DNA of 64,000 nucleotides from Thermogladius calderae 1633 (GTDB lineage Archaea; Thermoproteota; Thermoprotei_A; Sulfolobales; Desulfurococcaceae). Positions within the stretch are counted from its first letter, which is position 1, and each line of letters opens with the position of its first letter. Shown in pieces: positions 6,409 through 34,137 of this stretch. The stretch spans positions 434,001 through 498,000 of the forward strand of contig NC_017954.1 of assembly GCF_000264495.1 (NCBI RefSeq), given 5' to 3'. Below the pieces are notes generated by a model. That model was not told the DNA's origin. It ran no database searches and worked only from the letters and a program-made list of their open reading frames with translations. Made by a program: the position numbers and the translations under genes.

Positions 6409-7275
6409 CTACGCCGTGAGTAGCCCTTCGTAGATGGCTAGGAAGGTCAGCACCGCCAGTTCCTCGACGTACTCGTTAAAGCTAAACCCCTGCCTCCTCA
6501 CTTCGGCATCTACCTCGAGTAACCTCTTAGCCGCCTCCCTACTGGCCAGGTCTTTCTCGACCAGCTCTCTAACAGCGCCTCTGAGGTTAACTGGAATACG
6601 GGGCGTAATCAGGTCGAGGTAAGTAGCCAGTATACTGGCCTCCGCGCTCTTGAACCTCTTCTTGTAGTTGAGCATGTTCTTCAGTAGCCCTATGACTGGG
6701 AACTCGTGTGTGTCGAGAAGCGTAAATGCGGGCCATTTAGACGACAAGACTCTGAACACCTCGCTGAAAGAAACCGTTGAGCTGATCAACGTGACGCCTG
6801 TAAGGTCTGTGGAGGCAAGGTGGTCGAGCATGTCCGTCCTATGGACGCTTCTCAGCGCGTCTAGGAAGGTCTTGATGTCCCCAGGCCTGTTTGCCGAGAG
6901 GAGGTTCTCCAGCACCCTCTTCACTTGTGCGTGGTCTCTCAGAATACTCTCGGTACCGGTGTACCCGAGCGAGAAGGCGTACAGGAGGCTCGGCACTATC
7001 AACGAGGGGTAGACCCTGCCACACCACCTGAAGGCCTCCCTTAGGGCTTTGTTGAGAAACCTGCCGAGTTCGACCGAGGGTAGTGAGAGGTCGCCTCTTC
7101 TAACCCGCTCCCCTATCGAGGTCGCCTCGTTTACGAGGTCCGATACCGAGATACTGTTGCACACTAGGCTAACCGACTCGAGGTCTACTCTCAACCTGTG
7201 ATAACCACCCGGCTTGATAGGGGTATCGACTGCTAGGTAGACCCCGTAGAGGAAGGACTTTACTACAGTGCTCAC
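6409..7275 (-). CDS. CitG-like triphosphoribosyl-dephospho-CoA synthase family protein
   Basis: About 288 residues. The N-terminal KPGGYHR resembles the KPGNVHR signature of archaeal CitG-related proteins, and the order of later segments (NLG-like hydrophobic helix, a DIKTFLDALRSV helix, STDLTG, and a terminal helical region) also fits. Bacterial CitG condenses ATP and dephospho-CoA with release of adenine; the archaeal homologues have no proven reaction. GTG 7275 is preferred because GGTG lies 6 nt upstream; GTG 7296 is also possible. It is the last gene of a minus-strand operon that also contains a RimK-type ligase and MTA phosphorylase. Family assignment is moderate. Confidence 0.5.
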   Translation of the reverse strand: MSTVVKSFLYGVYLAVDTPIKPGGYHRLRVDLESVSLVCNSISVSDLVNEATSIGERVRRGDLSLPSVELGRFLNKALREAFRWCGRVYPSLIVPSLLYAFSLGYTGTESILRDHAQVKRVLENLLSANRPGDIKTFLDALRSVHRTDMLDHLASTDLTGVTLISSTVSFSEVFRVLSSKWPAFTLLDTHEFPVIGLLKNMLNYKKRFKSAEASILATYLDLITPRIPVNLRGAVRELVEKDLASREAAKRLLEVDAEVRRQGFSFNEYVEELAVLTFLAIYEGLLTA

Positions 7276-7368
7276 GTGGACCACCCCTTTTACCACTCGT
7301 CTCGGAGGACCTAGAGATCAGGCTGAGAGCTCCTCCTCACCACTCCGGACGGTTTGCTACTCATCATC

Positions 7369-8259
7369 TCACTTCTTTATCTTATCTTTCAGGAGCCTAA
7401 TTATATCCCTCGAGGGGTCTACGCCGGTGGCCTGCTTGAGTCCGTGCCACTGCGGGAACGCGTTTACCTCCAGGATGAACAGTTTGTTTGTTGTCCTGTC
7501 TAGTGCGATGTCTACCCCAGCGTAGTCGAGTTTTAAGGTCTTAGTAGCCTCTACTGCTAGTTTGAACGCTTCAGGGTACTCGCTCTCGTCGACTTTCACC
7601 CCTCTAGCGCCCTGCGCTACGTTGGTCTTCCACTTACCCTCCACGACCCTCTTCATACCGGCGACTACTCTATCACCTACCACGAACAACCTGAAGTCGA
7701 AACCAGGCTTTTCCAAGAAGACCTGGTAGTAGCTTGGTATACCCATCGATGACAGCCCCTTAGTCAGCTGGAAAGCGACATCGGGGTCGTCTACAAGCGT
7801 CGAGCCGAGCCCTAGACTCCCCGTGATGGGCTTTAGAACGGCTCTTTTGGCTTGCTCTACGTACCTCATCGCAGTGAACGGGTTCTCGGTGACCAGTGTG
7901 TTAGGGACGGGCAGTCCAGCAGATGCCAATGCTAGAAGACTCCTCCACTTGTCTCTGGCAGTAACTGAGGCGATTGGGTCGTTGACTACCGGGACAGTTT
8001 TTGAAAGTGCCTCCAAGACGCCGATCCTCTTCATGAAGACCTCAAGCGACATGAACACCCCTACACCTCTGAGAACAGCACCGCTTATGTCTAGTTCTCT
8101 GTTGTGATACTTCACGCTGATTTTCCCGTCTACTATATAGGAGTCGAGACCCTGAACCCTGACGTACTCTGCCTCCACGTTCTCCTCGGAGGCAGCCCTC
8201 AACAAGTCTACGACGGACTCGGATAGTGTCGACCTATAGTGGATTATCCCTATCTTCAT
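7369..8259 (-). CDS. RimK-type ATP-grasp ligase (MptN/RimK/LysX group)
   Basis: 296 residues. After an N-terminal pre-ATP-grasp domain come the ATP-grasp signatures: AVLKPITGSLGLG (about 140-152) as the nucleotide-binding loop, a DFRLFVVGDRVVAGMKR strand (about 185-201), and the metal-binding ILEVNAFPQWHG (about 266-277). Members attach an amino acid, often glutamate, to a carboxylate on a protein or cofactor; archaeal MptN glutamylates tetrahydromethanopterin. Which substrate is used here cannot be read from sequence. It overlaps the upstream membrane-protein gene by 4 nt, indicating translational coupling. Confidence 0.8.
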   Translation of the reverse strand: MKIGIIHYRSTLSESVVDLLRAASEENVEAEYVRVQGLDSYIVDGKISVKYHNRELDISGAVLRGVGVFMSLEVFMKRIGVLEALSKTVPVVNDPIASVTARDKWRSLLALASAGLPVPNTLVTENPFTAMRYVEQAKRAVLKPITGSLGLGSTLVDDPDVAFQLTKGLSSMGIPSYYQVFLEKPGFDFRLFVVGDRVVAGMKRVVEGKWKTNVAQGARGVKVDESEYPEAFKLAVEATKTLKLDYAGVDIALDRTTNKLFILEVNAFPQWHGLKQATGVDPSRDIIRLLKDKIKK

Positions 8260-28057: not shown

Positions 28058-29575
28058 ATGGACAACGTTAAGAAGGGTCTAATAGTGTCTCTCGTGATCC
28101 TCGTGTTGTCGTTCGCCGGCATGTACCTCATCAGGGTGCCGTACGAGGGGGTGGGTAAGAGCATCATTGACGCGTGGTGTAGTGCGAGAGGAGGCTGCTC
28201 GGACCCTTCGCTGATAAACTCCTCGAGGAGCATAGTGGAGCAGGGCGCTAGCCTGGGCTTCTTCCTCGTCGTGATAGCCCTCACAGTGATCTCGATGGAA
28301 TACAGGTACTACGCGGCCCTCCTCGGCGTCTCCGCGATAGTCTTCCTAGGGGTTGTCTCCCCGCAACTGGTATTAGGAGGTGTCGAGTGGGGGCTGATCC
28401 TCTTCCTAATCGGGAGCATGACCCTCGCCTACGTCCTGAGGTCGCTGAGGGTCTTCGAGTACCTCGCCATAAGAGTGCTGGAGGCCAGCCGCGGCAACCC
28501 TGTACTGCTCGTGGCCTACCTGTCCGTCCTCTCCTGGTTCCTCTCGCTCGCCGTAGGCGAAGTAGCGAGTATCACGTACGTGCTCATGCTGGTCTTCGAC
28601 ATCTACAAGCTCACAGGCTACGACGTGAGGCCTCTGGTCATACTGTCAGTACTAGCCACCAACACGGGTAGCGTCGCCCTGCCCGTGGGGAACCCCATAG
28701 GGCTATACTTGGCCTTCACAGCGAACCTCAGTATAACGTCCTTCATAGTCAAGGCCTTACCCCTGTCCCTCCTAAACCTAGCGCTCCTAGTAGTGGTGTT
28801 CTCCGCGCTCGCGAGAGGCTACCTCTCGGGTTTCGGCGAGAGGTTGAGCAGGGACATGATAGACAAGATAGCGGTGCGCTTCTACACCTCGCTGTCCCCC
28901 GACGAGATCAGCAGGGTTAAGGGGGGCCTGGTAATACTAATAGCCTTCCTGACCCTCGTCGGGGTAAACGACCAGCTGTCGAGGGCAATAAGCCTCCTAG
29001 GAGGCATTAACGTAGACCCCCACGCCCTATTGGCCTTCACACCCTACCCGCTGATAATGGTGTCGACCCCCCTTATCGGCGCCTCGAGAATGGGCGAGGT
29101 GCTCGAGAAGGGCGTCGAGTGGCCCTCTATAATATTCTTCATCTCGCTCTTCATGCTAGGCTACTCTCTGTTCTGGTCTGGCGTGGCCTCCAAGCTGGCT
29201 TACCTGACAGTCCTGCTAAGCTCTTTGACAGGCGCGGTGTCCTTCCCGCTCCTGTACACCATCATGCTGGTTCTCTCGGCGGGCCTAAGCAGCGTCTTGG
29301 ACAACTTGTCTGTCATAGTGGCCCTGACACCCGTCGCGCAGACGCTGGTCTCGATCGGGGGCTCAGCTGCGGCGTTCTGGGCCCTACTATACGGCGGCGT
29401 GTTCGGCGGGAACTACACGCCGATAGGTAGCTCGGCGAACATAATAGCCGTGGGCCTGAGCGAGAAGAACAAGATGGAGATAGGGTGGGGCGAGTGGCTG
29501 AAGATGGCCCTGGTCGCTACGACCATCGAGGTAGTGGTCGCCATTGCTTGGACTCTCACAGTGGCTAGCATGTAG
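28058..29575 (+). CDS. ion transporter of the ArsB/NhaD/CitM (IT) superfamily
   Basis: 505 residues with about 11-13 membrane helices. Helix 1 is at 8-27, an exterior Cys-containing loop follows (WCSARGGCSD), and the two-fold related NTGSVALPVGNP (about 205-216) and GGNYTPIGSSANIIA (about 449-463) segments match the conserved pore-forming hairpins of the superfamily, as does SSVLDNLSVIVALTP. Members exchange Na+ for H+ or move arsenite, citrate or sulfate; substrate cannot be fixed. The beta-grasp gene pair follows 9 nt after the stop. Confidence 0.85.
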   Translation: MDNVKKGLIVSLVILVLSFAGMYLIRVPYEGVGKSIIDAWCSARGGCSDPSLINSSRSIVEQGASLGFFLVVIALTVISMEYRYYAALLGVSAIVFLGVVSPQLVLGGVEWGLILFLIGSMTLAYVLRSLRVFEYLAIRVLEASRGNPVLLVAYLSVLSWFLSLAVGEVASITYVLMLVFDIYKLTGYDVRPLVILSVLATNTGSVALPVGNPIGLYLAFTANLSITSFIVKALPLSLLNLALLVVVFSALARGYLSGFGERLSRDMIDKIAVRFYTSLSPDEISRVKGGLVILIAFLTLVGVNDQLSRAISLLGGINVDPHALLAFTPYPLIMVSTPLIGASRMGEVLEKGVEWPSIIFFISLFMLGYSLFWSGVASKLAYLTVLLSSLTGAVSFPLLYTIMLVLSAGLSSVLDNLSVIVALTPVAQTLVSIGGSAAAFWALLYGGVFGGNYTPIGSSANIIAVGLSEKNKMEIGWGEWLKMALVATTIEVVVAIAWTLTVASM

Positions 29576-29584
29576 GAGCCGCCT

Positions 29585-29797
29585 ATGCCCGTGAGGGCCC
29601 TCGTACTACCCAGCAGGGTCTGGGTCGAAGTACCCAGAGACTCCATAACGCTGGCAGAGCTCGTGAGAACCATAGTAGAGCGCGGTTTCAGCGGAAACCT
29701 CATAGTCTTGGTAAACGACAGAATCGCGGACGAGCCGTGGACTCTTATAAGGGCCGGGGATAGAGTTGTAGTTATAGAGGAAGCGCCGGGTGGCTGA
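29585..29797 (+). CDS. ThiS/MoaD-like beta-grasp protein 1
   Basis: 70 residues, ending in APGG. The pattern of strand, strand, LAELVRTIVERGF helix, LIVLVNDRIADEPWTLIRAGDRVVVIEEAPGG is that of ThiS, MoaD and SAMP proteins, whose C-terminal Gly-Gly is adenylated by an E1-like enzyme and then carries sulfur as thiocarboxylate or is joined to lysines. GGAG lies 6 nt before the ATG. The next gene starts 2 nt after the stop and encodes a second such protein; an E1-like enzyme is encoded beyond it on the other strand. Confidence 0.75.
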   Translation: MPVRALVLPSRVWVEVPRDSITLAELVRTIVERGFSGNLIVLVNDRIADEPWTLIRAGDRVVVIEEAPGG

Positions 29798-29799
29798 CG

Positions 29800-30063
29800 G
29801 TGAAGGTGAAGGTCGTCTTCACCGGGAGAGCGAGCGAGATGTCCGGCGTCTTCGCGATGGAAGTCGAGCTACCGGAGGGTGCTACCCTAGACGAGCTGGT
29901 GAAAACAGTGTCCAGTAAGCTCAACCCGAGGATATACAAGAGGTACTCTCAAGGACACTTCGTCTTCGTGACCTTCGTAAACGACAGGCCTGTTCTCAGC
30001 CCCGACTACAGGCTCCGGGACGGCGACAGGGTCACGTTCATGACGCCCGAGATGGGTGGTTGA
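29800..30063 (+). CDS. MoaD-like beta-grasp protein 2
   Basis: 87 residues ending in EMGG. KVKVVFTGRASEMSGV, the LDELVKTVSSKLNPRIYKRY helix, FVTFVNDRPVLSPDYRLRDGDRVTFMTPEMGG fits the MoaD/SAMP type more closely than ThiS, with the longer loop between helix and strand 3. GTG 29800 is 7 nt after GGTG inside the end of the previous gene. It converges with the E1-like gene, 3 nt apart. It may serve molybdopterin synthesis, tRNA thiolation or protein modification; the sequence does not tell. Confidence 0.78.
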   Translation: MKVKVVFTGRASEMSGVFAMEVELPEGATLDELVKTVSSKLNPRIYKRYSQGHFVFVTFVNDRPVLSPDYRLRDGDRVTFMTPEMGG

Positions 30064-30066
30064 GCC

Positions 30067-30807
30067 TCACTGGCACCTCTCGAACATTCTTGGGTCTGGC
30101 TTGAACTCGATAACCTCGAAAGACGGCTGGAGACCGTTGTAGACGAGCAGCTTGTTGACCAGAAGGTTACCCATACCTAGGATTATCTTGGCGGTCTCCA
30201 GGGCCTCTATTAGACCTATGATCCCCGGCGTTGTGGGGAATACCTGGAGAGTGGACTCTTCCCTGGTTTCGTCGCTAATCGGGAACAGGGCCCTAAGACA
30301 GGGTGTCACCCCGGGGAGGACGACTGTCACCTGTCCGTAGAAGCCCCTAACGCCCCCGTGGACGAGGGGCTTTCTCTTAGACCAGGCGACCTTGTCAAGG
30401 ACGAACCTAGCAGGCCAGTTGTCGAACGCGTCGACGTAGACGTCCACGTCTATGCTCGACAAGAGGCTCTCGGAGACCTCGGCGTATATGGGCTGGACGT
30501 TCGTGTTCGGGTTCAGCTTCTTAAGTTTCTCTGCGGCGGCGAGCGGCTTGGGCTTGCCCAGGTCGTCTATTGAGTACAGCACCTGCCTCTGGAGGTTGCT
30601 GACCTCGACCACCTCTCTGTCCAGTACGTAGAGGTTCCCCACACCCATGGCTGCCAGGTAGATCGATACGGCTGAGCCTAGGCCGCCTAGACCGGCGACG
30701 AGGACCCTGGCCTTCTTCAGCTTCAGCTGCCCCTCTTCTCCTATCAGCTCGAGTTGCCTGCTGTAGAGCTCTCTCTCGAACTCGCTCAATTCCACTCTCT
30801 CAGCCAC
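30067..30807 (-). CDS. E1-like ThiF/MoeB/HesA adenylyltransferase lacking the usual cysteines
   Basis: 246 residues. ATP-binding GLGGLGSA at 39-46, the NLQRQVLY loop (71-78), K86/K88 and VDAFDNWPARFVLD (about 130-143) are intact, so the acyl-adenylate step should work. In contrast the Zn-binding CxxC of MoeB/ThiF is reduced to PCLRALFP, the second pair to FERCQ at the C-terminus, and the segment aligned with the catalytic-Cys loop reads REESTLQVFPTTPGIIG without Cys. It should adenylate the Gly-Gly end of the three neighbouring beta-grasp proteins. It overlaps the third of these by 8 nt. Confidence 0.85.
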   Translation of the reverse strand: MAERVELSEFERELYSRQLELIGEEGQLKLKKARVLVAGLGGLGSAVSIYLAAMGVGNLYVLDREVVEVSNLQRQVLYSIDDLGKPKPLAAAEKLKKLNPNTNVQPIYAEVSESLLSSIDVDVYVDAFDNWPARFVLDKVAWSKRKPLVHGGVRGFYGQVTVVLPGVTPCLRALFPISDETREESTLQVFPTTPGIIGLIEALETAKIILGMGNLLVNKLLVYNGLQPSFEVIEFKPDPRMFERCQ

Positions 30808-31009
30808 CGGACTTCACCACGTAGACGATTACCTCGTCCCCGTCGCTCAGCTCGTCGTCTTCTGTCAGTATGACGCCATTCCGGAGCACGACCACCTCCT
30901 CTCCCACTAGGCCTACTTTGGCCAGTAGCTCCCTCACGCTGGAGACGTTCTCGACAACACGCTCTCCCTCCCCTGTTATCCTCACACGTATTCCCATCGC
31001 TGTGCTCAC
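30800..31009 (-). CDS. ThiS-like beta-grasp protein 3
   Basis: 69 residues ending in KSGG. GIRVRITGEGERVVENVSSVRELLAKVG, then EEVVVLRNGVILTEDDELSDGDEVIVYVVKSGG, is typical of ThiS-like sulfur carriers (strand 3 LRNGVIL plays the role of VNGE). GTG 31009 overlaps the stop of the upstream GTPase gene by 4 nt; ATG 30997 is an alternative start. It is cotranscribed with the E1-like enzyme, which overlaps its 3' end by 8 nt, making these two the closest functional pair of the cluster. Confidence 0.75.
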   Translation of the reverse strand: MSTAMGIRVRITGEGERVVENVSSVRELLAKVGLVGEEVVVLRNGVILTEDDELSDGDEVIVYVVKSGG

Positions 31010-31815
31010 TCCGCCTCCACGGGTTCGACGTAGTATGGTATTAGACCATCGTGGAAATCCCTAATAACCTTGCGAGCAGCCTCCTCGACGAGGGGGTCCC
31101 CACTCTTCTTGTAGAACCAGCCGTGCTTGGTCGCTATAGCCCTTAGGATCTCGTCGGGGTCCACGGAGTCGAGGCCATAGGCCTTCTTGAAAGCGTCGGG
31201 CCTTTTATCGATAACCCTCTTGATCAGCATGTGGGCGACCCCCACCGGGTCCTCGATGTGCTCCACTGGCGTCCCCCTGATAACCCTCTCCAGCGGGTCT
31301 CCTTCTATGGGGATCACGCCAGGGGTGTCGACCATAAGGATGTCCTTGTCTACCCTAACGAACTGGACGCCCTTGGTGTAGCCTGGGGAACCAGGGTAGG
31401 GGCTTGTGGGGGCAGAGCGCCTCCCCTTCAAGGCGTTGATTATAGACGACTTCCCGGTCTTCGGGAACCCGACTACGGCCACGACCGTCGGGAGTCTCGG
31501 GGCTACGCGCTTTATAGTCCTTCTAAGTATGAGCGTGCCCTGGTGTCTAGTGGTCGACACGTAGACCGCGTTGTAGCCCCTGCCAGCGAAGTACCTCTTC
31601 CACGCCTCGGCTACATCCCTTGGTACTAGGTCGGCCTTGTTCAAGACGAGGACCAGTTCCTTCCCCTGGCGGCGTACTATGCTCTCGACCCGCGCGCTCA
31701 GCGTGGAGAGCGGGTCTCTGGCGTCGAGCACGTGCAGGACTACGTCCGCCGAGTCGATCACCCGCCTGACCTCGCTCCAGGACATCAACCGGAAGAACCT
31801 AGGCCTCCGGCTCAC
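31006..31815 (-). CDS. circularly permuted GTPase of the YlqF/RbgA (MMR1-HSR1) type
   Basis: 269 residues. GTPase motifs occur in permuted order: DARDPL (about 32-37), NKADLVP (G4, about 59-65), VVGFPKTGKSSIINAL (G1, about 113-128), then DTPGVIP (G3, about 162-168). The family acts in large ribosomal subunit assembly in bacteria and eukaryotic organelles; archaeal members are assumed similar. GTG 31815 is 7 nt after GGTG; ATG 31785 would align with the common MSW start. It overlaps the AK6 gene by 17 nt. Confidence 0.9.
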   Translation of the reverse strand: MSRRPRFFRLMSWSEVRRVIDSADVVLHVLDARDPLSTLSARVESIVRRQGKELVLVLNKADLVPRDVAEAWKRYFAGRGYNAVYVSTTRHQGTLILRRTIKRVAPRLPTVVAVVGFPKTGKSSIINALKGRRSAPTSPYPGSPGYTKGVQFVRVDKDILMVDTPGVIPIEGDPLERVIRGTPVEHIEDPVGVAHMLIKRVIDKRPDAFKKAYGLDSVDPDEILRAIATKHGWFYKKSGDPLVEEAARKVIRDFHDGLIPYYVEPVEAE

Positions 31816-32395
31816 GCTCCAGCACCCTTTCGAGCTCCTCTATGAAGCTGGGGTCTACAACACTGAGCCAGTCGACGTACCCGGCTGGGGCAGCCCCTTC
31901 TCTGACCTTGCGTAGGAGCTCGTCGACGACCTCTTCTGGGGTCTTGCCAGTGACGTCTACCTCGACAACCTTCCCGGTACCGAACCTGGCCACGACGTTT
32001 GTCAAAACTACGGATAAGACCTCTGCCATCACGTTCTCGGCTACCTTCTTATCGTTCCACCCCCGTTTCCTCAACCTGGTGATCAGTACCCTGGGATCCA
32101 GCCTGAGGACTACCACCAAGTCCACTACCTTGCTGTCCAAGACCTCGGGGTAGTGCGTCGAGATCACAGTCCCACTACTGCTCTCACACAGCTCTCTCAC
32201 TCTAGCCGAGACCCTTTCCTCGCTGATAACGTAGCTGTTAGTCTCGGGGTCGTAGTAGTCGTAGAGCCCCTCTCTCACTACTAGCTCGCTCAAGTCGACG
32301 TGGGTGCCTCCGATCCGCTCTGCCAGTAGTCTCGAGACTGTCGACTTGCCTACTCCAGGTGTACCGGCTACGACCAGGCACTTGAAACCCGGCAT
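31799..32395 (-). CDS. AK6/Fap7-type adenylate kinase
   Basis: 198 residues. P-loop AGTPGVGKST (about 10-19), HVDLSELV (about 32-39), VISTHYPEVLD for the substrate site, VVVLRLDPRVLITRLRKRGW (about 95-114) and KVAENVMAEVL are the signature of AK6/Fap7/hCINAP. Such kinases phosphorylate NMP and help 18S/16S rRNA maturation together with uS11 in eukaryotes and archaea. A C-terminal extension of about 30 residues follows the usual core. Next to it is the ribosome-assembly GTPase, which supports a role in ribosome biogenesis. Confidence 0.88.
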   Translation of the reverse strand: MPGFKCLVVAGTPGVGKSTVSRLLAERIGGTHVDLSELVVREGLYDYYDPETNSYVISEERVSARVRELCESSSGTVISTHYPEVLDSKVVDLVVVLRLDPRVLITRLRKRGWNDKKVAENVMAEVLSVVLTNVVARFGTGKVVEVDVTGKTPEEVVDELLRKVREGAAPAGYVDWLSVVDPSFIEELERVLEREPEA

Positions 32396-32445: not shown

Positions 32446-34137
32446 CTACCTCTTCACCAGCTCGAGGATACCCTCGTAGGTCTTCTTGTAGATCTCCGTC
32501 GACTCCAGCTTGCGCCTGTCCCTGATGTACTTCCTAGTGACGATGCCCTCGGGCAAACCGTACTTCTTGCTGTACTCGACCAGGCTAATACTGTTCTCCT
32601 TGTGTATCTTCTCCCTGTAGATGTCCTCGAAGATGTTGAACGCGCAGAACGGTATCAGTCTACCGTCTGGCACAGCGTAGTGGATGTTACACCTCTGGAC
32701 CCTCTGAATGTCGTAGTTGTATAGGTCCATGAAGTGCATCTGCCCCAGGAACAAGAGCTTGTAGTGGAGTTCACCCAGGGCCTCGTAGCTCCTCTTCACG
32801 ATGATGTTGAACAGCAACTTGTAGAGGTCGAAGCCCTCGGGGGCCTTCTCCTGGTGTATGAACTTCCGGATAGTGTAGAGCAGCCTCATCCCGGTCAAGA
32901 TCCTGCTCGAGCCCTCCACTAAGTCCCTCCACTTCTCCTCGAGGTACTCGACGAGCCCTTCCACGTCCACGAACTCGGTTATGGGCACGAGTCTGGTGGC
33001 GTCACCCCTCCTCTCGACGTAGACGTAGGTCCCCACCCCGCAGGCTGGGTGATTGCTCATCTCGAACTTGAACTCCCCGCTGAAGCCCTCTACAAACCTG
33101 GAGAACACGGCGCTGACGTTGATCGGGAACCACGCCTCTCTCGGGACCTCCCCCTCGGTCTGCTCCTCTATCAGCTTGACTATGTCGCCTATGGTGACCC
33201 TGTACTTCTCCCTCTCGTGCCTCTTCATAAGCCCTGTTATGCTCACCGGTTGGAAGTTCACGGACCTCACGATGTCTATGTGCTTGGCGGCGAACCTTAC
33301 CATCGCCCCGAGCTCGTGGGTGTTCACGTTGTTGATCACCGTGGGCACCAGTACGACGCTCGTCATACCCGCTTTCCTGAAGACCTCGAAGATGTACGGG
33401 ATCTCCCAGTGGTTCTTCCAGTTCGTGACGGGCGATACGCCGTCGAAGCTCAGGTAGACCGTGTTCACGCCCGCAGCCCTCAGCTCTCGGGCGTACTCGA
33501 CAGCTTTAGCGGGCTCCTCCCAGTACAGCTCAGCGAACTTGATCCCGTTTGTGTTGAGCTGTATATGCCTTACGCCCTCGCTCCTCAACATCCTGACTAT
33601 CTCGACGAGGTCCTCCCTAAGGGTCGGCTCACCGCCTGTCAGCTGGACGGCGACCGTCACGCCCTGCTTCTTGATCGCTCTCACCATCTCCCTTATCTGG
33701 TCTATAGACGGCTCGTACACGAAGCCCGAGGCCTCCGCAAAGAAGAAGCAGTACCAGCAACTCAGGTTACACCTGTTAGTCAAAACGATGTTCACTAGGG
33801 CTGAGTGCTGCTTGTGCATCGGGCAGAGACCACAGTTGAACGGGCAGGGCCCCCTCAACTGGGTGTAGACGTGTCTCGTCCCTCTCCCGTCTTCCTCCCA
33901 CTTAGCGATCCTCTTGTACGTAGTAGCGTCACCGTAGTATATCTCCTCGATCTCCCCGTGTTCAGGGCACACTCTCCGTATGTAGATCTTTCCATTTCTC
34001 TCGACTAGTACGGCTGGTAAAACTCTGTAGCAGTAGGGGCAAACACTCATGGTCGTGGATACGAGCTCCTCGCCCTGCCTCAACCGGGGGATAACGTAGG
34101 AGATCTCCCCGACCCTTTTGCCGACTGTTATGGTCAC
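32446..34137 (-). CDS. radical SAM tetraether lipid synthase (Tes-like)
   Basis: 563 residues. The N-terminal zinc/Fe-S binding part has C33-x2-C36 and C57 (CPEHG), then CPFNCGLC at C98, C102 and C105 with KQHSALVNIVL, and the radical SAM motif CNLSCWYC (C123, C127, C130) followed by FFFAEASG and the LTGGEPTLR SAM site (about 165-173). A further Cys group (PACGVG; QRCNIHY; IPFCAFN) lies in the C-terminal half. This set matches the MJ0619/Tes family, which joins the phytanyl chains of archaeol lipids to make tetraethers. GTG 34137 has GGTGG 4 nt upstream. Confidence 0.88.
   Translation of the reverse strand: MTITVGKRVGEISYVIPRLRQGEELVSTTMSVCPYCYRVLPAVLVERNGKIYIRRVCPEHGEIEEIYYGDATTYKRIAKWEEDGRGTRHVYTQLRGPCPFNCGLCPMHKQHSALVNIVLTNRCNLSCWYCFFFAEASGFVYEPSIDQIREMVRAIKKQGVTVAVQLTGGEPTLREDLVEIVRMLRSEGVRHIQLNTNGIKFAELYWEEPAKAVEYARELRAAGVNTVYLSFDGVSPVTNWKNHWEIPYIFEVFRKAGMTSVVLVPTVINNVNTHELGAMVRFAAKHIDIVRSVNFQPVSITGLMKRHEREKYRVTIGDIVKLIEEQTEGEVPREAWFPINVSAVFSRFVEGFSGEFKFEMSNHPACGVGTYVYVERRGDATRLVPITEFVDVEGLVEYLEEKWRDLVEGSSRILTGMRLLYTIRKFIHQEKAPEGFDLYKLLFNIIVKRSYEALGELHYKLLFLGQMHFMDLYNYDIQRVQRCNIHYAVPDGRLIPFCAFNIFEDIYREKIHKENSISLVEYSKKYGLPEGIVTRKYIRDRRKLESTEIYKKTYEGILELVKR

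Follow-up and report, generated by a model that had tools for sequence, protein, structure and literature searches.

A conserved locus in Thermogladius likely serves Ubl activation through one E1-like enzyme and three distinct Gly-Gly carriers

Our analysis identifies a compact gene cluster that likely represents the Ubl-activation locus of Thermogladius, comprising one MoeB/ThiF-type E1 enzyme and three of about six sulfur carriers with a C-terminal Gly-Gly motif. One of these carriers, Ubl-C, is very probably the sulfur carrier for tRNA 2-thiolation by the 2-thiouridine synthetase TtuA, as judged from its sequence relationships and its gene linkage in related archaea. The principle that one activator serves several carriers is already known and is established for both T. 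kodakarensis (PMC11323500) and H. volcanii (PMC4048286), and what is added here is a conserved cluster that contains three carriers.

The cluster is located in a 64,000-nucleotide stretch of DNA (the window) from the closed, 1,356,318-base genome of Thermogladius. On the forward strand, the gene for a CitMHS/ArsB-type membrane transporter (28058..29575; Pfam CitMHS, 114.9 bits) is followed after 9 bases by that for Ubl-A (29585..29797), a beta-grasp carrier of 70 aa ending in ...EEAPGG, and, after another 2 bases, by that for Ubl-B (29800..30063), a MoaD/SAMP1-like carrier of 87 aa ending in ...TPEMGG. The gene for the E1-like adenylyltransferase of the MoeB/ThiF family (30067..30807, reverse strand; 246 aa) converges on this pair, with 3 bases separating its stop codon from that of Ubl-B. 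Its start overlaps by 8 bases with the gene for Ubl-C (30800..31009, reverse strand), a SAMP2/TtuB-like carrier of 69 aa ending in ...VKSGG, which in turn shares 4 bases with the end of a gene for a YlqF/MMR_HSR1-type GTPase (31006..31815, reverse strand; MMR_HSR1, 65.3 bits). Next on the same strand is the gene for an adenylate-kinase-like NTPase (31799..32395; AAA_18, 83.4 bits) of the PRK03839 type, perhaps Fap7, whose score against the PRK03839 profile (133 bits) lies below the cut-off of 152. The NTPase, the GTPase, Ubl-C and the E1 are probably encoded in the same operon. The coordinates and strands given in the initial annotation are correct for all four genes, as are the Gly-Gly ends of the three carriers and the description of A and B as running rightward and of C as running leftward and overlapping the E1 gene. 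A gene for the radical SAM tetraether lipid synthase Tes (32446-34137; 710.8 bits, NF045702) adjoins the cluster, and a Tes-type gene was found again in about 23 of the compared loci.

All three carriers score above the Pfam ThiS cut-off of 22.5 bits (A, 26.3; B, 32.5; C, 33.8 bits) and combine a C-terminal Gly-Gly with a beta-grasp fold. The fold, previously proposed from the sequence alone, is confirmed by the AlphaFold models of A and B (mean pLDDT of 93 and 84, respectively), and C was matched by sequence to the solved structures of SAMP2 and TtuB. The model of A resembles ubiquitin folds with Z scores of about 8-9; its Foldseek matches are all weak (best E value 4.7e-3), with beta-grasp domains at the top. 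This protein is weakly SAMP2-like (1.8e-4), was detected in the genome by the profile of its own family and belongs to a group found mainly in the Desulfurococcaceae. B gives a profile match to P. furiosus MoaD (1vjk; 1.2e-7), and its AF2 model matches MoaD and SAMP1 with Z scores of 10-11. Against the NCBIfam family moaD_arch, it reaches 23.8 bits, below the cut-off of 49.5, and its last six residues are invariant across 15 relatives. In a phylogenetic tree, the three carriers form separate supported clades (A, 96/92; B, 98/95; ultrafast bootstrap 96-98 across A, B and C), with few columns underlying the tree and an unsure deeper branching order.

The E1 matches the Pfam ThiF family with 213.6 bits (cut-off 28.1) and is the sole member of this family in the whole genome. 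Its best solved relative is MoeB (1jw9; 2e-35), and the ATP-binding and adenylation residues characteristic of MoeB/ThiF-type enzymes (R17, D63, N71, R74, K87, D126 and D129) are conserved in 49-51 of 51 sequences. By comparison, its score against the NCBIfam family SAMPActivE1UbaA, 168.7 bits, is under the curated cut-off of 450 bits. The thioester cysteine of Uba4 is located in the crossover loop (PMC7527816). In the window E1, this loop, FPISDETREESTLQVFPTT, contains no cysteine, and a crossover-loop cysteine is likewise absent from 50 of the 51 E1 sequences in the set. The sequence of the loop thus suggests that the enzyme acts in a MoeB-like manner, with adenylation alone sufficing and being followed by sulfur transfer rather than by conjugation through an E1 thioester. 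Cys170 and Cys245 are the only cysteines in the protein, and two of the four zinc-ligand cysteines remain. A reduced CxxC zinc site is seen in two genera (window 30067-30807; L055, L056 and L063), the second zinc cysteine being replaced by Ala in Thermogladius and by Tyr in a Desulfurococcus-like genus, and one C-terminal cysteine is lost as well. All genera with a reduced site have carrier C beside the E1.

To place the locus in context, we compared 61 related genomes, each of which contains an E1 homolog. In 25 of them, A and B are adjacent and co-directional. A B gene convergent with that of the E1 occurs in 24, spread over many genera, and 12 have C immediately next to the E1, with both genes on the same strand in every case. 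This recurrence across the Desulfurococcaceae indicates that the cluster did not arise by chance. It could still represent inherited synteny devoid of any functional link, with A and B converging on the E1 yet being expressed and used independently, in line with the fact that both are transcribed toward the E1, not together with it, and that several relatives have B or A at another site, flanked by unrelated genes. However, the persistence of the convergent arrangement in so many genera, together with the presence of only one ThiF-domain protein in the genome, makes this explanation highly improbable. With regard to the wider surroundings, the initial annotation had pointed to an ion transporter and ribosome-assembly enzymes. 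The GTPase and the kinase are indeed conserved neighbors, located at most four genes from the E1 in 24 and 23 of 52 inspected loci, respectively, whereas the transporter was found in 6 of 52 and is a neighbor only within the genus and in a few close relatives. Several relatives lack an intact B. In G016, a closed genome, its reading frame is interrupted by a stop codon, and G012 has no B gene; the gene is frameshifted in G019 and decayed in G013, two draft genomes in which sequencing errors could account for the broken gene. In G016 (L051, about 7232-7498), the stop is a TGA at a conserved Arg position, and the B gene of a close relative is intact in G024.

Carrier C offers the clearest link to a biochemical task. 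Among solved structures, it is closest to P. furiosus SAMP2 (5lda; 3e-13), PF1061 and Thermus TtuB (5ztb; 5.6e-6), and while its score against the Pfam family SAMP2 (PF21965) is 23.8 bits, compared with a cut-off of 27, an ortholog in G014 reaches 29.9 bits. In 25 of the 61 genomes, C lies directly upstream of the gene for the PP-loop protein TtuA, on the same strand and at a distance of -4 to 61 bases; in G024, this adjacency spans the circular origin. A representative C-linked PP-loop protein scores above the Pfam cut-offs for TtuA_LIM_N and ATP_bind_3. C thus shows both the closest solved relatives and the TtuA/NcsA linkage expected of a SAMP2/TtuB-type carrier. In none of the 61 genomes does C adjoin both the E1 and TtuA, so that, by neighboring either one or the other, it links the E1 to tRNA thiolation. 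In Thermogladius itself, C (464803) and TtuA (G000:C1:891374) lie apart, and the linkage is drawn from its relatives. The TtuA found at this position, above the TtuA_LIM_N and ATP_bind_3 cut-offs, answers the search for a TtuA/NcsA partner elsewhere in the genome; two TtuA paralogs are present, either of which may use C. Sulfur transfer to tRNA, one of the tasks initially proposed for these carriers, is therefore well backed by the repeated linkage of C to TtuA in relatives, with TtuA as the likely acceptor of C. In two relatives, a PALP/cysteine-synthase-like PLP enzyme, possibly involved in sulfur supply, is encoded after C and TtuA (L073 2135, L111 2752). In the presence of S0, T. kodakarensis can form part of its thiolated tRNA independently of Ubls (PMC11323500); by analogy, Ubl-free tRNA thiolation with S0 may occur in Thermogladius, too.

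The genome encodes six carriers with a terminal Gly-Gly, five of which exceed the ThiS cut-off. The three located outside the cluster lie beside MoaE, methyl-transfer genes and a molybdenum hydroxylase, respectively. The first is a separate MoaD, whose gene overlaps that of MoaE (L078 9459-9692 and 8995-9462) and is accompanied by those for MoaC and MoaA. The second (L077 10085-10330; G000:C1, about 636 kb), a ThiS/MoaD carrier of 81 aa ending in ...PPVSGG, has corrinoid-protein, RACo, MtrH-like and putative MetF/MetE-like genes as neighbors and may supply sulfur for homocysteine/methionine synthesis. The third (L079 8149-8406; G000:C1, about 1003 kb), a divergent MoaD-like protein, scores 17.2 bits against ThiS, under the cut-off, but ends in Gly-Gly (YEGG); its gene directly follows that for the small subunit of a hydroxylase of the CO-dehydrogenase/xanthine-dehydrogenase type.

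These findings bear on the suggestion that the clustered carriers act in molybdopterin synthesis. A MoaE partner does exist elsewhere in the genome, although it stands beside its own MoaD, and B was not found beside MoaE in any of the inspected loci. B could nevertheless be the MoaD that serves MoaE and AOR enzymes in molybdopterin or tungstopterin synthesis, given its MoaD-like sequence and fold, the presence of MoaE and AOR in this genome and most relatives, and the precedent of T. kodakarensis UblB, which is encoded with the E1 and serves the tungsten cofactor (PMC11323500). However, the dedicated MoaD described above, the retention of MoaE and AOR in genomes with a lost or broken B (G012, G016, G019 and G013) and the existence of several AOR genes in relatives with their own adjacent MoaD-like gene, weakly related to B, render this role quite improbable. 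Since MoaE is linked to a MoaD other than B, and since B can degenerate in genomes that retain MoaE and AOR, molybdopterin synthesis probably does not depend on B as its only carrier, and the molybdopterin task proposed for A, B or C thus finds no backing. Co-occurrence was also considered as a means to connect B to AOR or molybdopterin, but AOR and MoaE are present almost everywhere and provide no discrimination.

For A and B, no consistently linked acceptor emerged from the loci inspected among relatives, and no thiamine genes were seen in the neighborhoods of A, B and C. The idea that A serves the second TtuA paralog was rejected, because the two are uncorrelated: G008, G020 and G028 have A without a detected second TtuA, and G009 and G029 have a second TtuA without A. 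Away from the E1, B has inconsistent neighbors, which we take from their sequences to be purine deaminases, topoisomerase VI, ArgS/HIT and cation antiporters, and the other neighbors of A (DUF432, MscS-like and CutA1) indicate no function. A and/or B could mainly be protein modifiers that act in SAMPylation or urmylation, with the E1 moving the adenylated carrier straight to target lysines. SAMPs, Sulfolobus Urm1 and all three T. kodakarensis Ubls are conjugated with an E1 only (PMC4569737, PMC11323500, PMC12625751), with Sulfolobus forming conjugates by means of a single E1 (PMC4569737), and this possibility would agree with the lack of a consistent acceptor enzyme and with the model of B, which is equally near SAMP1 (Z 10.5) and MoaD. 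We nevertheless consider it unlikely, given the cysteine-free crossover loop, the broken or missing B in several relatives and, as an absence that is itself compatible with tagging, the failure to detect a JAMM desampylase in this genome and most cluster-bearing relatives. In G000, the search for a JAMM/MPN+ desampylase yielded no PF14464 match at an E value of 0.001, a threshold at which a divergent protease could be missed. It is tempting to speculate, albeit tentatively, that A and B are lineage-specific carriers for novel sulfur (or tagging) acceptors, in a system in which one cysteine-poor E1 charges six carriers without a thioester and specificity is set entirely by the carriers together with their acceptors. 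Either way, their retention with the E1 points to sulfur-transfer or tagging chemistry in these archaea that is still unexplained.

Returning to sulfur transfer by several carriers as the preferred reading, the single ThiF domain in the genome implies that the E1 must serve about six carriers. We infer that it would activate each of them by adenylating the C-terminal glycine. A persulfide or sulfide would then provide the sulfur that turns the acyl-adenylate into a thiocarboxylate, presumably with no E1 thioester being formed on the way, given the lack of a cysteine in the crossover loop; the genome encodes a protein of the cysteine-desulfurase type (433.9 bits) and gives a single weak rhodanese match. 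Thiocarboxylated C would hand its sulfur to TtuA for the formation of 2-thiouridine in tRNA, whereas A and B would act as parallel carriers for other acceptors, with B being dispensable in the lineage, and molybdopterin synthesis would proceed via the separate MoaE-adjacent MoaD, activated by the same E1. Related steps have been described elsewhere, including pyrophosphate release by TK2117 with TK2118 and the use of UblA for tRNA thiolation in T. kodakarensis (PMC11323500), as well as the TtuA-TtuB chemistry of Thermus thermophilus (PMC7138817). The initial notion of one activator for carriers with different tasks thus stands with respect to the single ThiF protein, the six carriers and the C-TtuA linkage, but not with respect to molybdopterin for the three clustered carriers. 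A strict assignment of one carrier to one task may also be wrong, considering that the Ubls of T. kodakarensis are partly interchangeable.

Collectively, our findings point to a compact, conserved locus suited to co-expressing the E1 with the three different carriers in cross-activation tests, and they provide comparative evidence suggesting that a SAMP2/TtuB-type carrier of the Desulfurococcales works with TtuA. A 2010 survey that included Staphylothermus marinus and Desulfurococcus kamchatkensis already recorded many associations between E1 and Ubl genes as well as duplications of MoaD in crenarchaea (PMC2948915). The nearest precedent, and an experimentally tested one, is the system of T. 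kodakarensis, with the E1 TK2117 and the carriers TK2118, TK1093 and TK1065 (PMC11323500). Both hyperthermophilic archaea have one MoeB/ThiF-type E1, three Gly-Gly carriers, a carrier gene together with the E1 and a ThiS-type carrier for tRNA thiolation, the latter being predicted in Thermogladius. However, T. kodakarensis has a single carrier beside the E1, which is of the MoaD type and serves the tungsten cofactor, whereas in Thermogladius three are clustered, the tRNA-type carrier overlaps the E1 and three more are encoded elsewhere. The UbaA/SAMP1-3/NcsA system of Haloferax volcanii (PMC4048286) similarly combines one E1 with several SAMPs and a SAMP2-like carrier linked to an Ncs6/TtuA-type thiolase, but it includes a JAMM desampylase, of which none was found in Thermogladius, and in contrast to UbaA, the Thermogladius E1 falls below the NCBIfam UbaA cut-off and has no crossover-loop cysteine. 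The TtuB-like C and the TtuA with its TtuA_LIM_N domain recall Thermus thermophilus TtuB/TtuA (PMC7138817), although the present system is archaeal and has two TtuA paralogs and the extra carriers A and B. Finally, the E1 resembles the enzymes of the E. coli MoeB-MoaD and ThiF-ThiS pairs in size, fold and adenylation residues, but differs from MoeB and ThiF in that its zinc cysteines are down to two and that it has several types of carriers to serve.
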